Positions 795 to 59,009 of a stretch of 64,000 bases of DNA are shown here, piece after piece. The stretch covers positions 1,116,001 through 1,180,000 of the forward strand of contig MSDW01000001.1 of assembly GCA_001914405.1 (NCBI GenBank), written 5' to 3'. The notes under the pieces were generated by a model. That model was not told the DNA's origin, searched no databases, and was given only the letters and a program-made list of their open reading frames with translations. The position numbers were made by a program, and so were the translations under genes. This stretch comes from Candidatus Methanohalarchaeum thermophilum. GTDB taxonomy: Archaea; Halobacteriota; Methanonatronarchaeia; Methanonatronarchaeales; Methanonatronarchaeaceae. The stretch's first letter is position 1. Every line of letters starts with the position of its first letter.

Positions 795-899
795 TTTTTT
801 TGGTGAGAAATCCCTGTCCTTAATCTTTGATTTAGGTTAGGGATGAATCACCACAAGATGTGTATAAGTAGTTGAATAATGTTTATATGGGAGATATAT

Positions 900-1040
900 G
901 TGGAAGACCCGACAACCATACAGATAGAAAAAGAAACACGGAAGAAACTCAAGGAGCTAAGGATAACAAGGAGAGAAATATATGACGAAATATTAAATAG
1001 GTTGATGAAAAATGCAACTAACTCAAAAAATAAAGATTGA
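900..1040 (+). CDS. small ribbon-helix-helix-like protein upstream of tnpB (46 aa)
   Basis: A GTG start follows a GGGAG Shine-Dalgarno by six bases. The product, MEDPTTIQIEKETRKKLKEL then RITRREIYDEILNRLM, fits a ribbon-helix-helix fold: strand TTIQI, helix 1 ETRKKLKELR, helix 2 REIYDEILNRLM. It overlaps the tnpB start at 1012 in another frame by 29 nt. A TATA-like TTTATAT lies about 20 nt upstream. The frame is intact although tnpB downstream has many stops. A likely role is a DNA-binding autorepressor or antitoxin-like regulator of the element. The equivalent ORF before the second tnpB is at 55223-55342. Confidence 0.65.
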   Translation: MEDPTTIQIEKETRKKLKELRITRREIYDEILNRLMKNATNSKNKD

Positions 1041-2293
1041 GTTAACAGAAGAACAAGAAGAAGTTCTTACTTCTCTTTCTGAGATATGTAGGTTGCTCTA
1101 TGATTTTTCACTCAAAGAAAGAATAGAGAACTGGAAAGAAAACAAGGACAAATCAAAAGAAGAAAGAAACTACATTACATATACAGATCAATAAAATAAG
1201 TTACCCAGATTAAGAGAAGGATATCCAAAATATAACTGGGTGTATTTAAAAGTCTTACAAATGGCTTTAAAGAAATTGGGCGCTAATTACAAGTCTTTCT
1301 TCTCTCTATGGAAGAAAGGAGACAATAAAGCGAAGCCACTAAGATTTAAAGGCAGTAAATACTTCACGAATTTATGCTATAACTAATCCGGGTTCAAAAT
1401 AAAAAAAGGGGAAAATAAAGTTTTTTCACAATCATCCAGACAAGACAGAACTATTTTTTGATGTTCCAACCAAGTTTTATTTGGAAGATAAGGACATTAA
1501 ATAAATCGAAATTTTCAGAGATGAAGTTAAGGAAGAATACTATGTCTTAATATCTTATGGGGTGGATATTCCAAGATACAAAGATAACGGAGAGTATCAA
1601 GCTTTCGATTTAGGAGTTGACAAACACATGGGAGTTGATATGGGTGGGAAGTTTGTTGGGTTCAGGAACCCAAGACCGGGTAAGTTTTGGCAATTGAAAA
1701 TGGAAGAAGTTTAATCAAAATGAGACAGATGTAAAAAAGGAAGTAATGGATGGAGATGGTATAATAAGAAATTGCAACAGGTGAAAAGAAGACTTGCTAA
1801 TTAAGTGAAGGATTGGCGACATAGATTAGGTTAAAAGATAGTTGAGAACATTAAAGCGAATATTATAGTAGTTGGAGTTTTAGATACTGAAGATATGGCA
1901 TAGAGCAACAAGGATGTAGGGGGTTTGAACAGGAGTTTACAAAATACAGGCACCATAGGTGGATTTGTTAGGTTTCTAATCTACGAGGCAGAACTTGTAG
2001 GTAAGAAGGTAGTAGAAATCAACGAAGCAAGCACTACTAAAAGGTGCTGTGTCTGTGGGAAGAAACAGGATATGCCATTACATGAAAGAACTTATAAATG
2101 TGATTGTGGAAACGAAATTGACAGAGACAAAAACTCTGCTATCAATATAATGAATCGTTTCCTATCACAAGAACGCTCTGTGAACGAGCAATCTTCCTTT
2201 ATGGAAGGTTTTCTGCGACAAACAGGTTTGGAATACGCCAACCAGCAAATGTCCAAACACTCGCAGGAAACCCCTTCCTCACGAACAACGTGA
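1012..2293 (+). pseudogene. tnpB: TnpB (IS605 OrfB) RNA-guided nuclease, degraded
   Basis: The N-terminal part opens MQLTQKIKIELTEEQEEVLT; the first in-frame stop is at 1192-1194. The same frame continues to a second stop near 1384 (GYPKYNWVYLKVLQMALKK is still readable), and the C-terminal part is open from 1925. The C-terminal zinc ribbon survives (CVCGKKQDMPLHERTYKCDCG), followed by NEIDRDKNSAINI, which carries the last RuvC acidic residue. Several stops of mixed type (TAA, TAG, TGA) and frame changes show it is dead. Its 3' end overlaps the RNA-like right end of the element, as in known TnpB/omegaRNA loci. Confidence 0.85.
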
Positions 2294-2313
2294 GCTAGGT
2301 AGGGGTAGTTCAC

Positions 2314-5528: not shown

Positions 5529-5956
5529 GTGAAGTGACCCCTACTTAAATCAGGGATTGGAGGGGGCTTTCCTGCGACCTTATCCTCTTCGAAGCAGAGG
5601 AGTTTGTTTTACCACCGAACTTGTCTCATGCATTCGGTTAACAGGGGACTTATGCTTTGAGGGAAGAATTGGATTAGGCAACTACGCCATATACTAACTT
5701 AACTTAACTCTTAGGGTGGTTTCTCTTATTCACTCTAGTAGCTCTACGCCAGCCACTAGACCTCCCTACTCCAAGAACCTTTCAGGCTTACCCAAGGATT
5801 TTGTCTTTATAGATGGGATTGCTTTTTGTTCAAGAGGCAGACAAACCAACCAACTGCCAATTTAGTTTTAATTAGTTTAAAAACTACTTAACTATTGTAG
5901 TTGATTCATCACCTACCTAAATCAAAAGATTTAGGAAGGTGTCTTCCCAATCAAAA
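5529..5956 (-). mobile_element. tnpB-less structured element, copy A1
   Basis: A roughly 428-nt non-coding element, transcript orientation minus. The left end (5890-5956) is GGGAAGACACCTTCCTAAAT with a hairpin and GATGAATCAACTAC. The right end (5529-5590) is GGAAAGCCCCCTCC, a hairpin, then AAGTAGGGGTCACTTCAC. Inside, the stem ACCGAA/TTCGGT lies between CCCCTGTT and the 3' GCAGGAAAG, which pairs with it. It is nearly identical to the copy at 37489. Related copies are at 7735, 22137, 51276 and 58390. Ends match those of tnpB elements, so it is best read as a non-autonomous IS605 derivative carrying an omegaRNA-like RNA. It ends 15 nt before the ModE-like gene. Confidence 0.75.
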
Positions 5957-5970
5957 GATAACTAATCAAA

Positions 5971-7734: not shown

Positions 7735-8139
7735 GTGAAGTGGGTCACTCTCTGAAGGTGGTGAGTTTCCTTGTGGGGTCTTATCCAAGTTGAGTCTGTG
7801 TTATCTACTGGGTTTGTCTTATACACTCAGTCATTAAGGGAACTTGTGCTTTGAGGAAGAACTGGATTGAGGAACAGTTTCCATATACTAACCCAATGAG
7901 GGTCCCTCTTATTTCCTTAGCGGCTGCTTCACATCAACCACTAGGAACCCCCTACTCCCAAGCTGTTTCGGGATTACCCAGAAATTTTTTTGGCCAATAG
8001 ACATATAAATGGCCTGCATTTGTTAGATGAGGCAGAACGCCTAACTCCCAAAGCTTAACTCGGTTCCAAAATCATTTAAATGTTGTTGAAGTCATTCATC
8101 CCATGCCCCTTGAAGAACACGAGTCTTTTGCCTCCAACT
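7735..8139 (-). mobile_element. tnpB-less structured element, copy A2 (diverged)
   Basis: Same layout as the 5529 copy, minus orientation. The left end has GACTCGTGTTCTTCAAGGGG and GGGATGAATGACTTC. The conserved core keeps CCCGAAACAGC, GGGTTCCTAGTGGTTGATG, GTTAGTATATGG and CCAGTTCTTCC. The 3' stem pair is TTCCCTT with AAGGAAA, and the inner stem is ACTG/CAGT, both different in sequence from the other copies but still complementary. The right end is GTGACCCACTTCAC. Confidence 0.7.
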
Positions 8140-8228
8140 CTATAACCTAATATATAGTAAAAGCCCTACAAAGTTTTTAAAATAACCTATATTAGTTTTT
8201 TTACCTTAAGAATTATTTATAGGTTTTT

Positions 8229-18207: not shown

Positions 18208-18711
18208 TTAAGCTTTTTTCTCTTGAACACTTATTACACCACCTGAAACACTATCAATCACTCTAACCTCAATTTTATGGCCTTCAGTAATACCTCCATC
18301 ACCATTATTAATAGTTTTCGAATCTGCAAAATCATTTAGCGGCAAAACACCGTATTTTATTCTTTCTCCTGCAGAAAATACGCCATCTTTATTGAGATCT
18401 TGTAATTGATTGAAGGTCCAAGTATCTCCATCTTCTAAGTCAGTGATTATGACTTTGGTATTACTAGTGTTTAGATCGTCTCCACCTTGATGTAACAAGG
18501 TAACAGTTCCATTGTGTTCGTTTTTGTTTTCTGGAACTATATTAGAGATAGTTATTGATGCTGTTGGTGTTGCTTGTGGTGTTTGGATGACGCCGAATAC
18601 GAAGCCTGCTACGATAGCGGCCATAATAACTGTAATAGCTACCATTAAGATAACGCCAATAACCGGTGAAACTCCAGTTCTATTACACAAAAAATTAGGT
18701 TGCTTTTTCAT
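18208..18711 (-). CDS. type IV pilin-like protein (167 aa)
   Basis: It starts MKKQPNFLCNRTGVSPVIGV, a 13-residue leader cleaved after Gly, then one hydrophobic helix ILMVAITVIMAAIVAGFVFG and a beta-rich body. The segment TVTLLHQGGDDLNTSNTKVI is shared with the paralogues at 25960, 29771 and 31507. These are archaeal PilA/DUF1628-class pilins assembled at the membrane. No pilus ATPase or membrane platform gene lies in the window. A Cys in the leader is unusual but would be removed on maturation. Confidence 0.88.
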   Translation of the reverse strand: MKKQPNFLCNRTGVSPVIGVILMVAITVIMAAIVAGFVFGVIQTPQATPTASITISNIVPENKNEHNGTVTLLHQGGDDLNTSNTKVIITDLEDGDTWTFNQLQDLNKDGVFSAGERIKYGVLPLNDFADSKTINNGDGGITEGHKIEVRVIDSVSGGVISVQEKKA

Positions 18712-18799
18712 ATTTTATTTGAACCTCTTTTTTTTTACAAAATCTGAATTCATAAGTTATTAATGGAAGATAATAATTACCTTAAGTTGCAGGGGCTAG

Positions 18800-22136: not shown

Positions 22137-22605
22137 GTGAAGCGACCCCTGCCTAACTTTTCATCTGTTTGGTGAGGAAGAGAGGCTTCCCTGTGAGGCC
22201 TTATCCCAAGAGAGGGAGTTTGTTTTCCACGGTGCCTTGTCTCATCCACACCGTCAACAGGGAACCTATTGCTCTGAGGAAGAATTGGATTAGGCAACTA
22301 CGCCATATACTAACCCTAGATGGTTCCTCTTATTCCTCAGCGGTTGCTCCACACCAACCACTATCTCCCTACTCCCAAGCTGTTTCGGGCTTACCTATCC
22401 ATCCCAATACTTACCTATACACCTCTCGATGTAGAGTCTGAGGCTTTAGCCATTGCCTCAAGGACAATGGGATTGCTTTTTGTTTGAAGGCAGACAAATC
22501 AACCAACTGCCATTAACATAATATTAGTTTTTTTATTTTAAAAAACATCGGATTCATCTCCTACCTATAAAAAAAAGAAAGGAAGAGGGTCTTCCCCGAT
22601 GAATA
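22137..22605 (-). mobile_element. tnpB-less structured element, copy A3
   Basis: About 469 nt, minus orientation. Left end GGGGAAGACCC, hairpin, GATGAATCCGATG; right end AAGCCTCTCTTCCTCACC, hairpin, GGCAGGGGTCGCTTCAC. The core keeps CTTAGTATATGGCGTAG-like sequence, CCAATTCTTCCTCAGAGC and TTCCCTGTTGACGGTG. The inner stem is ACGGTG/CACCGT and the outer pair TTCCCTGT/ACAGGGAA is a perfect eight base pairs here. Confidence 0.75.
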
Positions 22606-22632
22606 GATAAATTTAACCTAATCATACTTCTA

Positions 22633-25959: not shown

Positions 25960-26450
25960 TTATTGAGCTTCTGCTGTTGATGCGCTTATCGCTCCACCAG
26001 ATTTAGTGTGGATAACTCTTACCTCAAAATGATGTCCCTCAACAAAAGGATAAGCAAAGTTTCCGTCTGTAGCGCTTCCGCTCTCTTCAATTGTAATTCT
26101 CTCTCCAGCACTCCACATACCACCAACTTTGGTATCACTCAGATTGATTACCGTGCTCTTTCCAGAATTATCTAGATCAGTTATCACTATTTCAATTTCA
26201 CTAGCATTTAAACTGTTTCCACTTTGATGCAAAAGAACCATTTTACTAGAACTATTTTCAAGAGAATCAATAGAAACCGAAGCAGTTGGAGTTGCTTGAG
26301 GAGATTGTATAACGCCAAACACGAACCCTGCTACGATAGCGGCCATAATAACCGTGATAGCAACCATTAAGATAACGCCAATAACTGGAGAAACGGCAGA
26401 ATCCTTTTTTTTGTTATTTTTTTCTCAAAAACCTTACCAATATCAATCAT
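25960..26450 (-). pseudogene. type IV pilin-like gene with a frameshift in the leader
   Basis: The body and membrane helix (SPVIGVILMVAITVIMAAIV, AGFVFGVIQSPQATPTASVS) are intact and paralogous to the pilins at 18208, 29771 and 31507. The only plausible start, ATG at 26450 (MIDIGKVFEKKITKK), is in a different frame: an A8 run (26403-26410 region) would need nine A to join the leader to KDSAVSPVIG. In the pilin frame a TGA precedes the leader and no start codon lies between. This is a frameshift mutation, an assembly error, or a slippage-dependent gene. Confidence 0.7.
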
Positions 26451-26659
26451 CTATTTACTCCTTTTTTTAATTGTACTCCCAGAGAGGCTGAAAACCACCA
26501 AACATAATGAAATAAAAAACCTCTCATATACCACTGTTAGTATAATAGTATAAATCGTCACTTATTTAACTTACTGAAAGAAGAAAAGAAAAAACAAGAT
26601 AAAATTATAATAAAATATTATAGTTTTTTAAAAATTATTTCTAAAAAGAAAAAAATAAC

Positions 26660-29770: not shown

Positions 29771-30241
29771 TTAATCTGCTGTTGCTGTTGGAGCGCTAAT
29801 TGTTCCGCCTGATGGAGTATGGACAATCCTAACCTCATAATCACTTCCTTTAATGTAATCTACATTATTGTCATTATTACAATAGAAGGTGATCCGTTCT
29901 CCAGTGGACCATGTTCCAGTATCACTACCTGTTGTTTGAATACTTGTGTTTGTGGCTGTATTTGTAGTGTTGCCCTTTTCTGTTATAACTACTTTAATAT
30001 CGGAAACATTTAAGCTATCACCACTTTGATGTAAAACCGTTACAGAAACATTACTACTACTGTTAGAAATGTCATCTATTGTCATTGATGCTACTGGTGT
30101 TGCTTGTGGTGTTTGGATGACGCCGAATACGAAGCCTGCTACGATTGCGGCCATAATAACTGTGATGGCTACCATTAGGATTACGCCTATAACTGGTGAG
30201 ACTCCTTCTTTTTCCTTTAAGATTTTTAATTTTTCTTTCAT
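29771..30241 (-). CDS. type IV pilin-like protein (156 aa)
   Basis: Leader MKEKLKILKEKEG, cleaved before VSPVIGVILMVAITVIMAAI, then a beta-rich body with VTVLHQSGDSLNVSDIKVVI and a GSDYEVRIVHTPSGGTISAP ending shared by the group. Nucleotides encoding the leader end and helix are essentially identical over more than 110 nt to those of the gene at 31507, including silent positions, while the bodies differ. Start follows AGGAGG. Confidence 0.9.
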   Translation of the reverse strand: MKEKLKILKEKEGVSPVIGVILMVAITVIMAAIVAGFVFGVIQTPQATPVASMTIDDISNSSSNVSVTVLHQSGDSLNVSDIKVVITEKGNTTNTATNTSIQTTGSDTGTWSTGERITFYCNNDNNVDYIKGSDYEVRIVHTPSGGTISAPTATAD

Positions 30242-30730
30242 TTTGTTCCTCCTTATACTATTTTTTCTCTTTTGGGTTTGGGGCTAATTGGTTTGGTTTT
30301 TCTCTGTAGTTTATCAATCGTTTTTCTCTTTGATCTTTTTCATAGTTGATAAACGCCCCTAACATTTAATAGCCAATTTATTATATGTAGCTATTTTTTT
30401 TAAAGGTAACGATAGAAATATTTATAATTAATAAAGTTAAACCATTGAGAAGCAATAAAAATTAAAAATTTATACAAATTCAAAAAAAGAAAACATAATA
30501 AAAATAAATAATACAAATAAATACATTAAGACTTTTCTAGTTTTTAATAACTTAAAACTGAAGTTGTTTGATCAAATCATTTCAAGTCCAGATCGGATCT
30601 TTCGATTTATGGTTAAATGTATCATATAACTTAAAAAACTATTTTTTTATAAATTAAGTAGAATGAAACTCCTTAAAAAGTAATTAAGTTGTAAAATTTG
30701 GTTATTTTTATTTTTGATTCCTGTGGTTTT
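30242..30730. other. AT-rich spacer
   Basis: Very AT-rich with TATA-like stretches upstream of the pilin gene. No gene, repeat or RNA is supported. Confidence 0.5.
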
Positions 30731-31506: not shown

Positions 31507-31986
31507 TTATGCTGTTCCCGTAGGAGCACTAATTGTCCCACCAGAAGAAGTATCAATTATTCTAACCTCGTAGTCTTTACCAGCAGTTATATTTAAATTT
31601 TCCAATACTAGTCTTTCTCCTGTATCCCAACTACCATCACCACCAAGATCACCAGCTGTTTCACCATCATTAACGAGTGTATCTAAATTTTTACTTAACA
31701 TTTGATCGCCATCAGTAGAGTTGTATACAACAATTTCTGTGTCATTTAAAACTAATGCATCTCCACTTTGATGAAGCAAAGTAATTTCTCCATCATTACC
31801 ATTACCGGTTGTAAAGTCGTCGATTGTTATTGATGCTGTTGGTGTTGCTTGTGGTGTTTGGATGACGCCGAATACGAAGCCTGCTACGATTGCGGCCATA
31901 ATAACTGTGATGGCTACCATTAGGATTACGCCTATAACTGGTGAGACTCCTTCTTTTTCCTTCAAAATTTTTGGTTGTTTCTTCAT
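31507..31986 (-). CDS. type IV pilin-like protein (159 aa)
   Basis: Leader MKKQPKILKEKEG, then VSPVIGVILMVAITVIMAAI and a body with ITLLHQSGDALVLNDTEIVV and KDYEVRIIDTSSGGTISAPT. AAAGGAGGT precedes the ATG. The 5' 120 nt are almost identical to the gene at 29771. Probably a pilus or adhesion subunit. Confidence 0.9.
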   Translation of the reverse strand: MKKQPKILKEKEGVSPVIGVILMVAITVIMAAIVAGFVFGVIQTPQATPTASITIDDFTTGNGNDGEITLLHQSGDALVLNDTEIVVYNSTDGDQMLSKNLDTLVNDGETAGDLGGDGSWDTGERLVLENLNITAGKDYEVRIIDTSSGGTISAPTGTA

Positions 31987-32634
31987 TTTTTTACCTCCTT
32001 TAAATTTTTTTGTTTGTCCTTTTTTGGGCTTTTTCAGGTTTTTAATGTAAAGATGTTTACTAGATCTATGATATAAGGAACTGTTTTATATCGTTTTTTT
32101 AACTTTTAGGTGTATTGAATTGTTTTCTTTTTGAATTGAAAAAGTCCAATGAACTAACGGCTTAATCATTACTATGAATCCTTAGGTATTAAGGTTTACG
32201 GTTTAAAAAATATTAAAAATGAAAGTTTGAACTTGAAATATATAAAAAAAGAAAAAACAAAAATATAAGAATGAAATAACTTTCTGACATGATTTTATAA
32301 AACTAAAATAAAAAAAAACAAATAGTTATTTCAAATTTGTTTCTAGCATATAATTAGTATACAATTTCTTAAAAAAAGTTTCCTATGTATTTAATTTTAG
32401 TTGATTTGATATTTATTTCAGGTTTTAATTTTTAATTTCGCTTAAAAATTTTCTAGGATTAAATTTTTTGTTTCCGTTTAGGAAGAGAATATATATGATG
32501 TATAGCGTATATGTTATAGGTTTTTTGTGGTTTTAGTAAGTTAGGGGATCTTTGTAGTTTATAAAAAATTGATTTTCTAGGTTTTTTGTGTGGTATCTGT
32601 TTTTTGCTGGGGGTTTTAGTTTGTGTGGAAAGGG
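31987..32634. other. AT-rich spacer ending in a G/T block
   Basis: The left half is the upstream region of the pilin gene. From about 32560 the plus strand becomes almost only G and T, continuous with the end of the ycaO gene. No gene is supported. Confidence 0.5.
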
Positions 32635-36921: not shown

Positions 36922-37488
36922 TTTTACCAAAAAATCATATATAACCATATTTGATCTTTTATTTATCAAACTATACACTAAAACACTCAAACAACGATTC
37001 ACTAAATAAAAATTAATAAAAAATCCTTTAAATAATCTCGTGTAAATTAAATCACTTGCATATCCAACCTAATGTAATGAAAAACTCTTACAAACGCCAT
37101 TCTGAAACCCTAGAACCAAATACAAAAACAAAATATACCCATAAAAAAACCAAATAAAAACCCAAAAACCCCTAAAAACCAATTAAAACCATTAAAAAAT
37201 AAAAAACAGCCAAAAAACAAATCAAAAAAACTTTAAATTGAAACAGGAAACAAAAAAATTCATAGAGATCCCATTACCCAAAAACTGGAAAAACAAAATA
37301 ATTACCTCAAACCCAAAAACAAAACCCAAGCCCAAAAACCCATTAAAAATAACCTAAAACAGAATAAAATTACATTAATTTCATTCCTACAAAAAAATTA
37401 TACCTAACCCCTACATTTTACGATAATCCAATTTTTAGTTTCAAAAAAAAATACCCAAAAACAACTCAAACATATCTTCATCTTATCA
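36922..37488. other. A/C-rich spacer upstream of the Fe-S gene
   Basis: From 37080 the plus strand is almost only A and C (AAAAACC-type runs), that is, G/T-rich on the coding strand of the gene it precedes. No coding frame or repeat. Confidence 0.5.
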
Positions 37489-37896
37489 GTTGGATGAAGA
37501 CACCCCCCTAAATCTTTTGATTTAGGTAGGTGATGAATCAACTACAATAGTTAAGTAGTTTTTAAACTAATTAAAACTAAATTGGCAGTTGGTTGGTTTG
37601 TCTGCCTCTTGAACAAAAAGCAATCCCATCTATAAAAAACTCCGGGTAAGCCTGAAACGGCCTGGAGTAGGGAGATCTAGTGGCTGGCGTGGAGCTACCA
37701 ACGAGGAATAAGAGGAACCATTGAGAGTTAGTATATGGCGTAGTTGCCTAATCCAATTCTTCCCTCAAAGCAATAGTTCCCTGTTAACCGAATGCATGGG
37801 ACAAGTTCGGTGATAAAACAAAATCCTCTGCTTCTAAGAGGATAAGGTCACAGGAAAGCCCCCTCCAATCCCTGATTTAGGTAGAAGTCACTTCAC
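37489..37896 (+). mobile_element. tnpB-less structured element, copy A4
   Basis: About 408 nt, plus orientation, nearly identical to the inverted copy at 5529. Left end GATGAAGACACCCCCCTAAA with hairpin and GATGAATCAACTACAATAG; right end ACAGGAAAGCCCCCTCC, hairpin, GGTAGAAGTCACTTCAC. Core: GGTAAGCCTGAAACGG, GTTAGTATATGGCGTAGTTG, CCAATTCTTCCCTC, and inner stem ACCGAA/TTCGGT. A second stem ATCCTCT/AGAGGAT differs from TCCC/GGGA in other copies. Confidence 0.78.
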
Positions 37897-47592: not shown

Positions 47593-47648
47593 GTGAACTA
47601 CCCCTATCTAATCAAAAGATTTAGGAAGGTGTCTTCTTAGTCAAATAG
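47593..47648 (-). mobile_element. about 56-nt mini-element (solo IS605-type end)
   Basis: In minus orientation: TTTGACTAAGAAGACACCTT, hairpin AAATCTTTTGATT, then AGATAGGGGTAGTTCAC. Almost identical to the copy at 58326. Confidence 0.6.
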
Positions 47649-47885
47649 AAAAAAATAATTAAACTTTTTAAAAAATTCAACATGATATGATTGAATTTTT
47701 TTCTAAAAAAATCTTTTTTTTTTACTTATATATCCTTTAAGAATTTTGATTTAAGTTAGATTGGATAGTATAGATCTATTAGATAGTATCTATACGAAAA
47801 GGGATTTAGTAGGGGTTTTTGAGTTAGGAGGAAGTTTGAAATTTAGGATTGGGATTTGGAAGAGTAGTGTTAATATTTTTGGTGG

Positions 47886-51275: not shown

Positions 51276-51764
51276 GTGAAGTGACCCCTACCTAAAAAAG
51301 AGGGCTTCCCTGTAAACCGTATCCCAGGACAGGGGTTTTGTTTTACCATCAGGTTTCTCTTACTCACCTGGTCAACAGGGAACTTGCGCTTCGAGAGAAG
51401 GTTAGGCTTAAATAGTTTGGCGACATAGCTCAAAAAGTGGTTAGCTCCTGCATCCACTCTGTTGACATGTCTAGCAAGTGTTCCACCAACATATGTCACC
51501 CAAGTCCTTAAGCACTCTTATTCTCACCAGTTGCTCCACGCAACCACTAGACCCTGCATAGTATTTCAGGCTTACCCTAATGAGGTTTTTTGACCAAATT
51601 GAACAATCTAAATAGCCCTGTTTGTTTGTTCAAGGCAGAAAACCTAACCACCAAAGCTTAACTAGTGTTAGAGTCATTTAAAGAGTCATTTAACATTTAT
51701 GGTGTAAGGAAGTCCGTGTATCCCCCGCCCTAAAGAGCAGAGTCTATGCTGCTTCCTTACAAAC
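51276..51764 (-). mobile_element. tnpB-less structured element, copy A5, with the left end of the tnpB-2 type
   Basis: Minus orientation. The left end (51700-51764) reads TTTGTAAGGAAGCAGCATAG, a hairpin, GGGGGATACACGGACTTCC, which matches the left end of the tnpB element at 54124-55450. The right half matches the A family: AGTTCCCTGTTGACCAGG, TGGGATACGG and ACAGGGAAGCCC, with inner stem CAGGT/ACCTG. A hybrid of the two element types. Confidence 0.7.
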
Positions 51765-52139
<375 letters not shown>

Positions 52140-55636: not shown

Positions 55637-55737
<101 letters not shown>

Positions 55738-58325: not shown

Positions 58326-58382
58326 GTGAACTACCCCTACCTAATCAAAAGATTTAGGAAGGTGTCTTCTCAGTCAAATAGA
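58326..58382 (-). mobile_element. about 57-nt mini-element (solo IS605-type end)
   Basis: In minus orientation: TTTGACTGAGAAGACACCTT, hairpin AAATCTTTTGATT, then AGGTAGGGGTAGTTCAC. Directly next to copy A6. Confidence 0.6.
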
Positions 58383-58389
58383 TAACCAA

Positions 58390-58846
58390 GTGAAGTGACC
58401 CCTACCTTACCTCACATTTGTTCGGTGAGGAAGGGGCTTCCCTGTGAGGCCTTATCCCAAGAAAGGGAGTTTGTTTTCCACGGTACTTGTCTCATACACA
58501 CCGTCAACAGGGAACTTGCGCTCTGAGTGAAGAATTGGATTAGGGCACAAAGCCCCTATATTAGCTACACAATGGCTCCCTTATTCACTCTGGTTGCTCC
58601 ACACAACCACTAGACCCTACTCCAAGACCTGTTTCGGGCTTACCTATTTTTTTTCAACTCGTTACTTGACTCGTTTCCAAGTCAGTCCACGGACACGCCC
58701 CGTGTAGGCAACGGGATTGCTTTTTGATGAGGCAGACTCCCAACCAACTGCCAGTTACTCTTAATTAGTCTCAAAAACACTTAAACCCTTCCTAGTTGAT
58801 TCATCCCCTACCAAAATCAAAGATTTTGGAAAGGGTCTTCTCAACA
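58390..58846 (-). mobile_element. tnpB-less structured element, copy A6
   Basis: About 457 nt, minus orientation, the best-preserved hairpin ends. Left: GTTGAGAAGACCCTTTCCAA, hairpin AAATCTTTGATTTT, GGGGATGAATCAAC. Right: ACAGGGAAGCCCCTTCCTCA, a stem with TGTGAGG, then GGTAGGGGTCACTTCAC. Inner stem ACGGT/ACCGT inside the TTCCCTGT/ACAGGGAA pair. The right end is almost that of tnpB element 1 (795-2313). Confidence 0.78.
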
Positions 58847-59009
58847 TTTAAGATAAAATCTATCCAACAAAGATCAAATACCAAAACAATCTAATCAATA
58901 TACACTAAAAAAATAACTCTATACTTAATTTAATTTTCCTAAAATAAATAAAAAAATATAATAAAATAATAGATTCAATACCCCAAAAAATAGAGAAGGG
59001 GTAGTTCCA

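Follow-up and report, generated by a model that had tools for sequence, protein, structure and literature searches.

TnpB, the presumed ancestor of Cas12, works with an RNA that is read from its own transposon. Many guide-RNA loci without a nuclease gene are known, namely the stand-alone IscB omegaRNA loci (Ktedonobacter) and the ORF-less HEARO RNAs, and these are presumed to act in trans. The RNA that we describe below differs from these IscB-type loci in that it is of the TnpB type, has defined IS605 element ends and carries an added domain. For ISDra2 TnpB, the position of the RNA (reRNA), the derivation of the guide from the flank, and the TAM have been described (PMC8612924). In the literature that could be searched, we found no paper on tnpB-less omegaRNAs.

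Our subject is an element that begins at position 58390 of the window, i.e., the whole 64,000-nt stretch that was analyzed, which is C1:1116001-1180000 of the 2.14 Mb genome of a salt-lake archaeon. Like the omegaRNA/reRNA of TnpB (ISDra2; archaeal sotRNA), its RNA has a homologous scaffold at the tnpB 3' end, where it overlaps the last codons, and this scaffold ends at the right end with the flank directly after it (PMC8612924, PMC12558985). Unlike those RNAs, it belongs to an element without tnpB in cis, so it is not an omegaRNA in the strict sense; it has gained a domain of ~80 nt, and it matches no Rfam family (for the sotRNA families RF02656 and RF02657, there was no match at E <= 5). As a DNA element it resembles the PATEs of Haloquadratum and Halanaerobium: it is transposase-free, with palindromes near its ends, no target duplication, a short target motif, high copy number and IS605-like ends (PMC3119063, PMC7290912). 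It differs from PATEs in that its interior is a conserved, structured, omegaRNA-derived RNA; the accessible parts of these accounts describe no RNA for PATEs. A Halanaerobium PATE-like element that contains the last 58 nt of tnpB plus the right end may be a one-copy analogue (PMC7290912). What is new here is a PATE with an omegaRNA aboard, which it has remodelled.

The original prediction placed six copies of this element in the window, and all are present: in those at 5529, 7735, 22137, 51276 and 58390 the RNA is on the minus strand, and in the one at 37482-37896 it is on the plus strand. The proposed start of the 58390 copy was correct; its end had been put at 58846, and the element reaches 6 nt further, to 58852. 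A core said to be common to every copy, CCAATTCTTCC, occurs without mismatch in three copies (5529, 22137 and 37482) and with one mismatch in two (7735 and 58390), and is missing at 51276. With 58390-58846 as a BLAST query, >40 long genomic copies were retrieved (72-97% identity, E down to 1e-217), and a covariance model (R1) for the 156 nt at the 3' end of the element finds at least 140 genomic places at E <= 1e-3; this count is a lower bound, since only 150 of 955 first-look candidates were scored. Full-length copies at such identity, together with this number of R1 places, mean that the 58390 element is not a chance feature; the family accounts for a good part of the repeats in the genome. 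An alignment of 45 copies has sharp borders, TTTAT then C... at one end and ...GGGGTCACTTCAC at the other, outside of which the flanks are unrelated among copies. Among 44 tabulated copies, TTATC is found in nearly all, preceded by a T in 38, and the TTCAC terminus is as had been described, in 41. R1 is present in 2 of the 394 genomes of the phylum that were searched, both from the same family, under strict filters that may have missed weak matches; just one genome besides the present one was found to have the RNA. A DNA pattern derived from the RNA matched, among named genomes, only contigs of archaeon SCG-AAA382B04; a protein scan for TnpB relatives in named genomes found none, and there was no match in the viral contigs searched.

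Features of the 58390 element and positions of the other copies (window coordinates)
Feature	Position	Strand	Basis
tnpB-less IS200/IS605-type non-autonomous element, 463 nt, RNA sense minus	58390-58852	-	exact ends common to copies
TTTAT target motif immediately 5' of left end, TAM-like by analogy	58853-58857	-	tabulated copies
Left-end hairpin CCAAAATC-TTT-GATTTTGG	58811-58829	.	sequence; similar left ends on tnpB elements L010, L011, L014, L016
5' domain: hairpin GGCAG...CTGCC, then AAAAGCAAT	58645-58755	-	alignments
omegaRNA core (model R2), homologous to tnpB 3' ends; relic frame GKPET.GVGSSGCVEQPE-stop	58520-58644	-	
Extra structured domain, absent from tnpB 3' ends	58438-58514	-	
Outer stem of extra domain, ACAGGGAA/TTCCCTGT	58438-58445/58507-58514	-	
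Inner stem of extra domain	58480-58484/58500-58504	-	
Right-end hairpin, CCTCAC/GTGAGG with CCCCT/AGGGG foot	58399-58437	.	helices 6 and 7 of R1
Right terminus TTCAC	58390-58394	-	41/44 copies
Would-be guide site TTGGTTATCTATTTGACTGA, if the RNA acts as an omegaRNA	58370-58389	-	position only, inferred
Copy	5529-5957	-	R1 at 5529-5680, R2 at 5654-5792
Diverged copy, 5' end approximate	7735-8181	-	R1 at 7735-7873, R2 at 7848-7978
Copy	22137-22606	-	R1 at 22137-22296, R2 at 22271-22395
Copy, opposite strand	37482-37896	+	R1 at 37745-37896, R2 at 37645-37771
Diverged copy, internal insertion, 5' end approximate	51276-51770	-	R1 at 51276-51414

Elsewhere in the window are four diverged direct repeats of 237 nt (18519-18755, 26241-26477, 30049-30285 and 31794-32030; 61-85% identical) that overlap minus-strand ORFs of 135-167 aa and probably represent a local paralogous gene family. 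A 99-nt Rfam tRNA match (52 bits) at 55638-55736 on the minus strand, not reported by ARAGORN, is possibly an intron-bearing tRNA.

That the element is mobile, as had been proposed, is borne out by its precise ends and by an empty site that can be restored: the copy at L049 (C1:414.2-414.7 kb) lies within a tnpA gene, which is decayed in other ways as well, and when the flanks GGGGTTTAT and AAATGCTC are joined directly after TTTAT, ...SLKTNMVGFINALKGATSRA... is restored in frame with zero duplicated bases, comparable to FINALKTGTSKA of the intact tnpA at L022. The element therefore inserts 3' of TTTAT without target duplication, a habit of IS200/IS605 elements. There is no ORF >=120 aa within 58390-58852, hence no transposase is encoded, and imperfect palindromes lie subterminally at both ends, in the form of hairpins similar to the ones on this genome's tnpB elements. 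This is a non-autonomous, PATE-like element of the IS200/IS605 type. Its TTTATC left border is also found on the tnpB elements L010, L014 and L016; its right end, which was predicted to match that of tnpB elements, is not identical to it, being TCACTTCAC in tnpB-less and TAGTTCAC in tnpB elements. The genome contains 24 Y1 transposase matches, some intact, none of which is linked to TTTATC ends. A search for intact tnpB and tnpA genes with matching ends had been suggested: intact genes exist, i.e., tnpB at L011 and, with the most similar left end of any intact tnpA, L022, but their borders are CTTATC and TTTAAC, respectively, not TTTATC.

The window also contains a decayed tnpB element (~800-2313, plus strand; OrfB domain with stops at 1571-1903, right end TAGTTCAC). 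Its left border is like TTTAAC and not TTTATC, so that its target preference differs; the tnpA element L022 shares this preference. Two 60-nt ends-only elements (47593-47652 and 58326-58385) consist of a left end and the right end TAGTTCAC around a single palindrome; they are minimal PATEs. The second sits 4 nt from the 58390 element, and the would-be guide site of the latter runs into it.

The origin of the RNA was traced with a second model, R2, for which only tnpB-less copies were used as input and which covers the core upstream of R1. R2 matches 14 tnpB 3' ends, in every case on the sense strand and 286-310 nt beyond the OrfB domain; within 900 nt, one match lay on the opposite strand, and no same-strand match lay upstream. 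This fixed position and strand indicate that the RNA descends from a TnpB omegaRNA. (A 15th match, 469 nt past OrfB, is a separate decayed copy of the element.) At L011, which encodes an intact TnpB, the core extends over the final ~45 codons (MGKPETSGVGSSGVVDTPRRIRK...); in tnpB-less copies a relic of this frame, GKPETxGVGxSGCVEQPE, can still be read, with a stop after about 20 codons. By sequence comparison, then, the RNA core and the 3' end (the omegaRNA position) of one TnpB subfamily are homologous, and the characterization of the RNA in the original prediction as omegaRNA-like is upheld. The further description of it as a guide RNA is supported as to ancestry alone: guide function is without any sequence evidence. 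The plus strand folds about as well as the minus strand; the RNA is assigned to the minus strand by its homology with the 3' ends of tnpB and by where the right end lies.

The two classes of element part company beyond the core. In tnpB elements the right-end hairpin and TAGTTCAC follow directly, whereas in tnpB-less elements a structured domain of ~80 nt intervenes before that hairpin, and the end is TCACTTCAC. This domain was found at no tnpB end in this genome (R1 against 61 OrfB matches). One candidate for a tnpB parent with the full RNA, at C1:1500589, was discarded, because it is a decayed element copy in its own right that lies behind an unrelated tnpB; the locus (L097, C1:1497000-1503500) holds a tnpA-tnpB pair with the decayed copy directly behind the tnpB end, such that a tnpB tail and a foreign omegaRNA are fused. 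The loss of the nuclease, another part of the prediction, is thus sustained, in that not one of the at least 140 R1 matches belongs to the 3' end of a tnpB itself; it follows that the stems noted earlier arose or diversified after that loss. At the other end of the RNA, the motif AAAAGCAAT of the 5' domain is present in 39 of 86 element loci and was seen only inside element copies. An RNA with two domains not seen at tnpB ends, one 5' and one 3', and with an R1 region shared by no tnpB, might have acquired a new job, as a regulator, a decoy or sponge for TnpB, or the scaffold of another protein, and no longer guide cleavage. We give this little credence, since the omegaRNA core still sits in the usual place, ahead of the right end and the flank, and the element has kept moving, which is typical of a selfish rather than a domesticated RNA.

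The RNA fold is conserved with compensatory changes across the family, the extra domain included. The inner-stem pairs reported earlier (ACGGTG/CACCGT, ACCGAA/TTCGGT, CAGGT/ACCTG and ACTG/CAGT) are all found in the alignments; the outer pair, TTCCCTGT/ACAGGGAA, is exact in three copies (22137, 51276 and 58390) and imperfect in the others. RNAalifold gave 34 pairs, nine of them with both-sided changes. Across 96 distinct copies, both-sided changes occur in 16/23 pairs (217 cells vs 64 in shuffles), paired cells amount to 92.5% vs 83.8% in shuffles, and the covariation score is 0.345 vs 0.184 shuffled (0/500 shuffles; slid controls, 0.045-0.092). Because the model had been used to fit this alignment (A4), and because the shuffles leave relatedness in place, the stems were also tested without alignment: each 5' strand was paired with its own 3' side or with the 3' sides of other copies (1000 shuffles). 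For H6, the own partner yields 5.61 of 6 pairs and swapped partners 4.68 +/- 0.21 (maximum 5.22 in 1000); the own-partner values for H4 (6.27 vs 6.01 swapped) and H3 (4.58 vs 4.22) exceed all 1000 shuffles. Covariation scoring and this test together confirm the compensatory change that had been inferred. H1 gave no signal in the alignment-free pairing test, probably because its regex windows were too loose, and single-sequence folding is not unusual (z about -1.1). Could these stems instead be single-stranded DNA structures that serve TnpA in transposition? The terminal hairpins, helices 6 and 7 of R1, are of a kind found in IS200/IS605 elements, but a distance of 45-240 nt separates the internal stems H3 to H6 from the termini, the R1 domain is missing from tnpB elements whose ends are similar, and H4 also changes pairwise between tnpB 3' ends (AAGGAGAA/TTCTCCTG) and tnpB-less copies (AGAGTGAA/TTCACTCA); as an account of the stems, DNA structure is hardly credible.

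The genome contains a second tnpB-less family of ~320 nt and about 40 copies (TTTATC...AAGTCAC; for example L013:745-1075, C2:303242-303572), which is unrelated to the first and is also omegaRNA-bearing. Its core (R3) is similar to tnpB 3' ends from a different subfamily (L018, E 7e-5; weak matches at E 0.002-0.1 are mostly on tnpB 3' ends) and is followed by an extra stem-bounded domain of its own. Two parallel tnpB-less families argue against accident, and they bear on the plain-PATE alternative: that only the DNA ends of these elements matter, the omegaRNA being the passive relic of an internally deleted tnpB element, with stems inherited and not selected. There is precedent in the PATE literature, i.e., ends-only PATEs in Haloquadratum (PMC3119063) and the one PATE-like element that retains a tnpB tail and right end (PMC7290912), and the window has its own 60-nt ends-only elements. 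Nevertheless, a passive relic would not be expected to keep stems distant from the ends paired via both-sided changes, nor to carry an R1 domain that occurs at no tnpB end here and so diversified in the tnpB-less state; moreover, the second family retains an omegaRNA core plus an extra structured domain as well. We consider the relic explanation unlikely, although it is the one to be taken most seriously among the alternatives.

The reading that we favor, and regard as probable with some reservation, is that of a PATE with a remodelled TnpB guide-RNA scaffold in place of the nuclease gene, mobilised and guiding in trans; the trans activities are inferred, without expression or binding data. 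The evidence suggests that the element lives off the transposase and nuclease of its relatives. A Y1 transposase (TnpA) made elsewhere would move the single-stranded element, and a TnpB would bind the element's transcript in trans; one candidate is the intact 445-aa protein of L011 (domains OrfB_IS605 and Cas12f1-like_TNB), the single intact member recognised in the matching subfamily, most others having stops. The sequence 3' of TTCAC would then become the guide; once the element has been excised, the nuclease would cut the donor site left empty (TTTAT and its flank), and the element would be restored when the break is repaired from a sister chromosome. Selection on such RNA-dependent retention would explain why an element without genes has kept its RNA fold. 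The extra domain might, speculatively, improve competition for TnpB or stabilise the RNA. Binding by a resident TnpB is not assured, given that tnpB omegaRNAs have neither this domain nor the TCACTTCAC end. Two other tnpB matches in the genome (L098, C1:645434; L099, C1:851818) have equal scores and equal open frames of about 415 aa; that at L098 has a halophile-like look, with GC above its surroundings, and is perhaps a recent arrival. More tentatively, with not quite even odds, the two families may be RNA-only parasites of the TnpB system: their sole product would be a guide RNA, a foreign TnpA would move them and a foreign TnpB re-home them, in two lineages of their own, with an added domain that helps them to capture the nuclease.

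If ~140 nuclease-less elements do keep and remodel an omegaRNA, they would be a case in which guide RNAs act in trans and evolve independently of the nuclease gene, which is an expected step from transposon guides towards separate CRISPR arrays. As naturally occurring scaffold variants that carry a new domain, they would also help in asking what TnpB tolerates or prefers.
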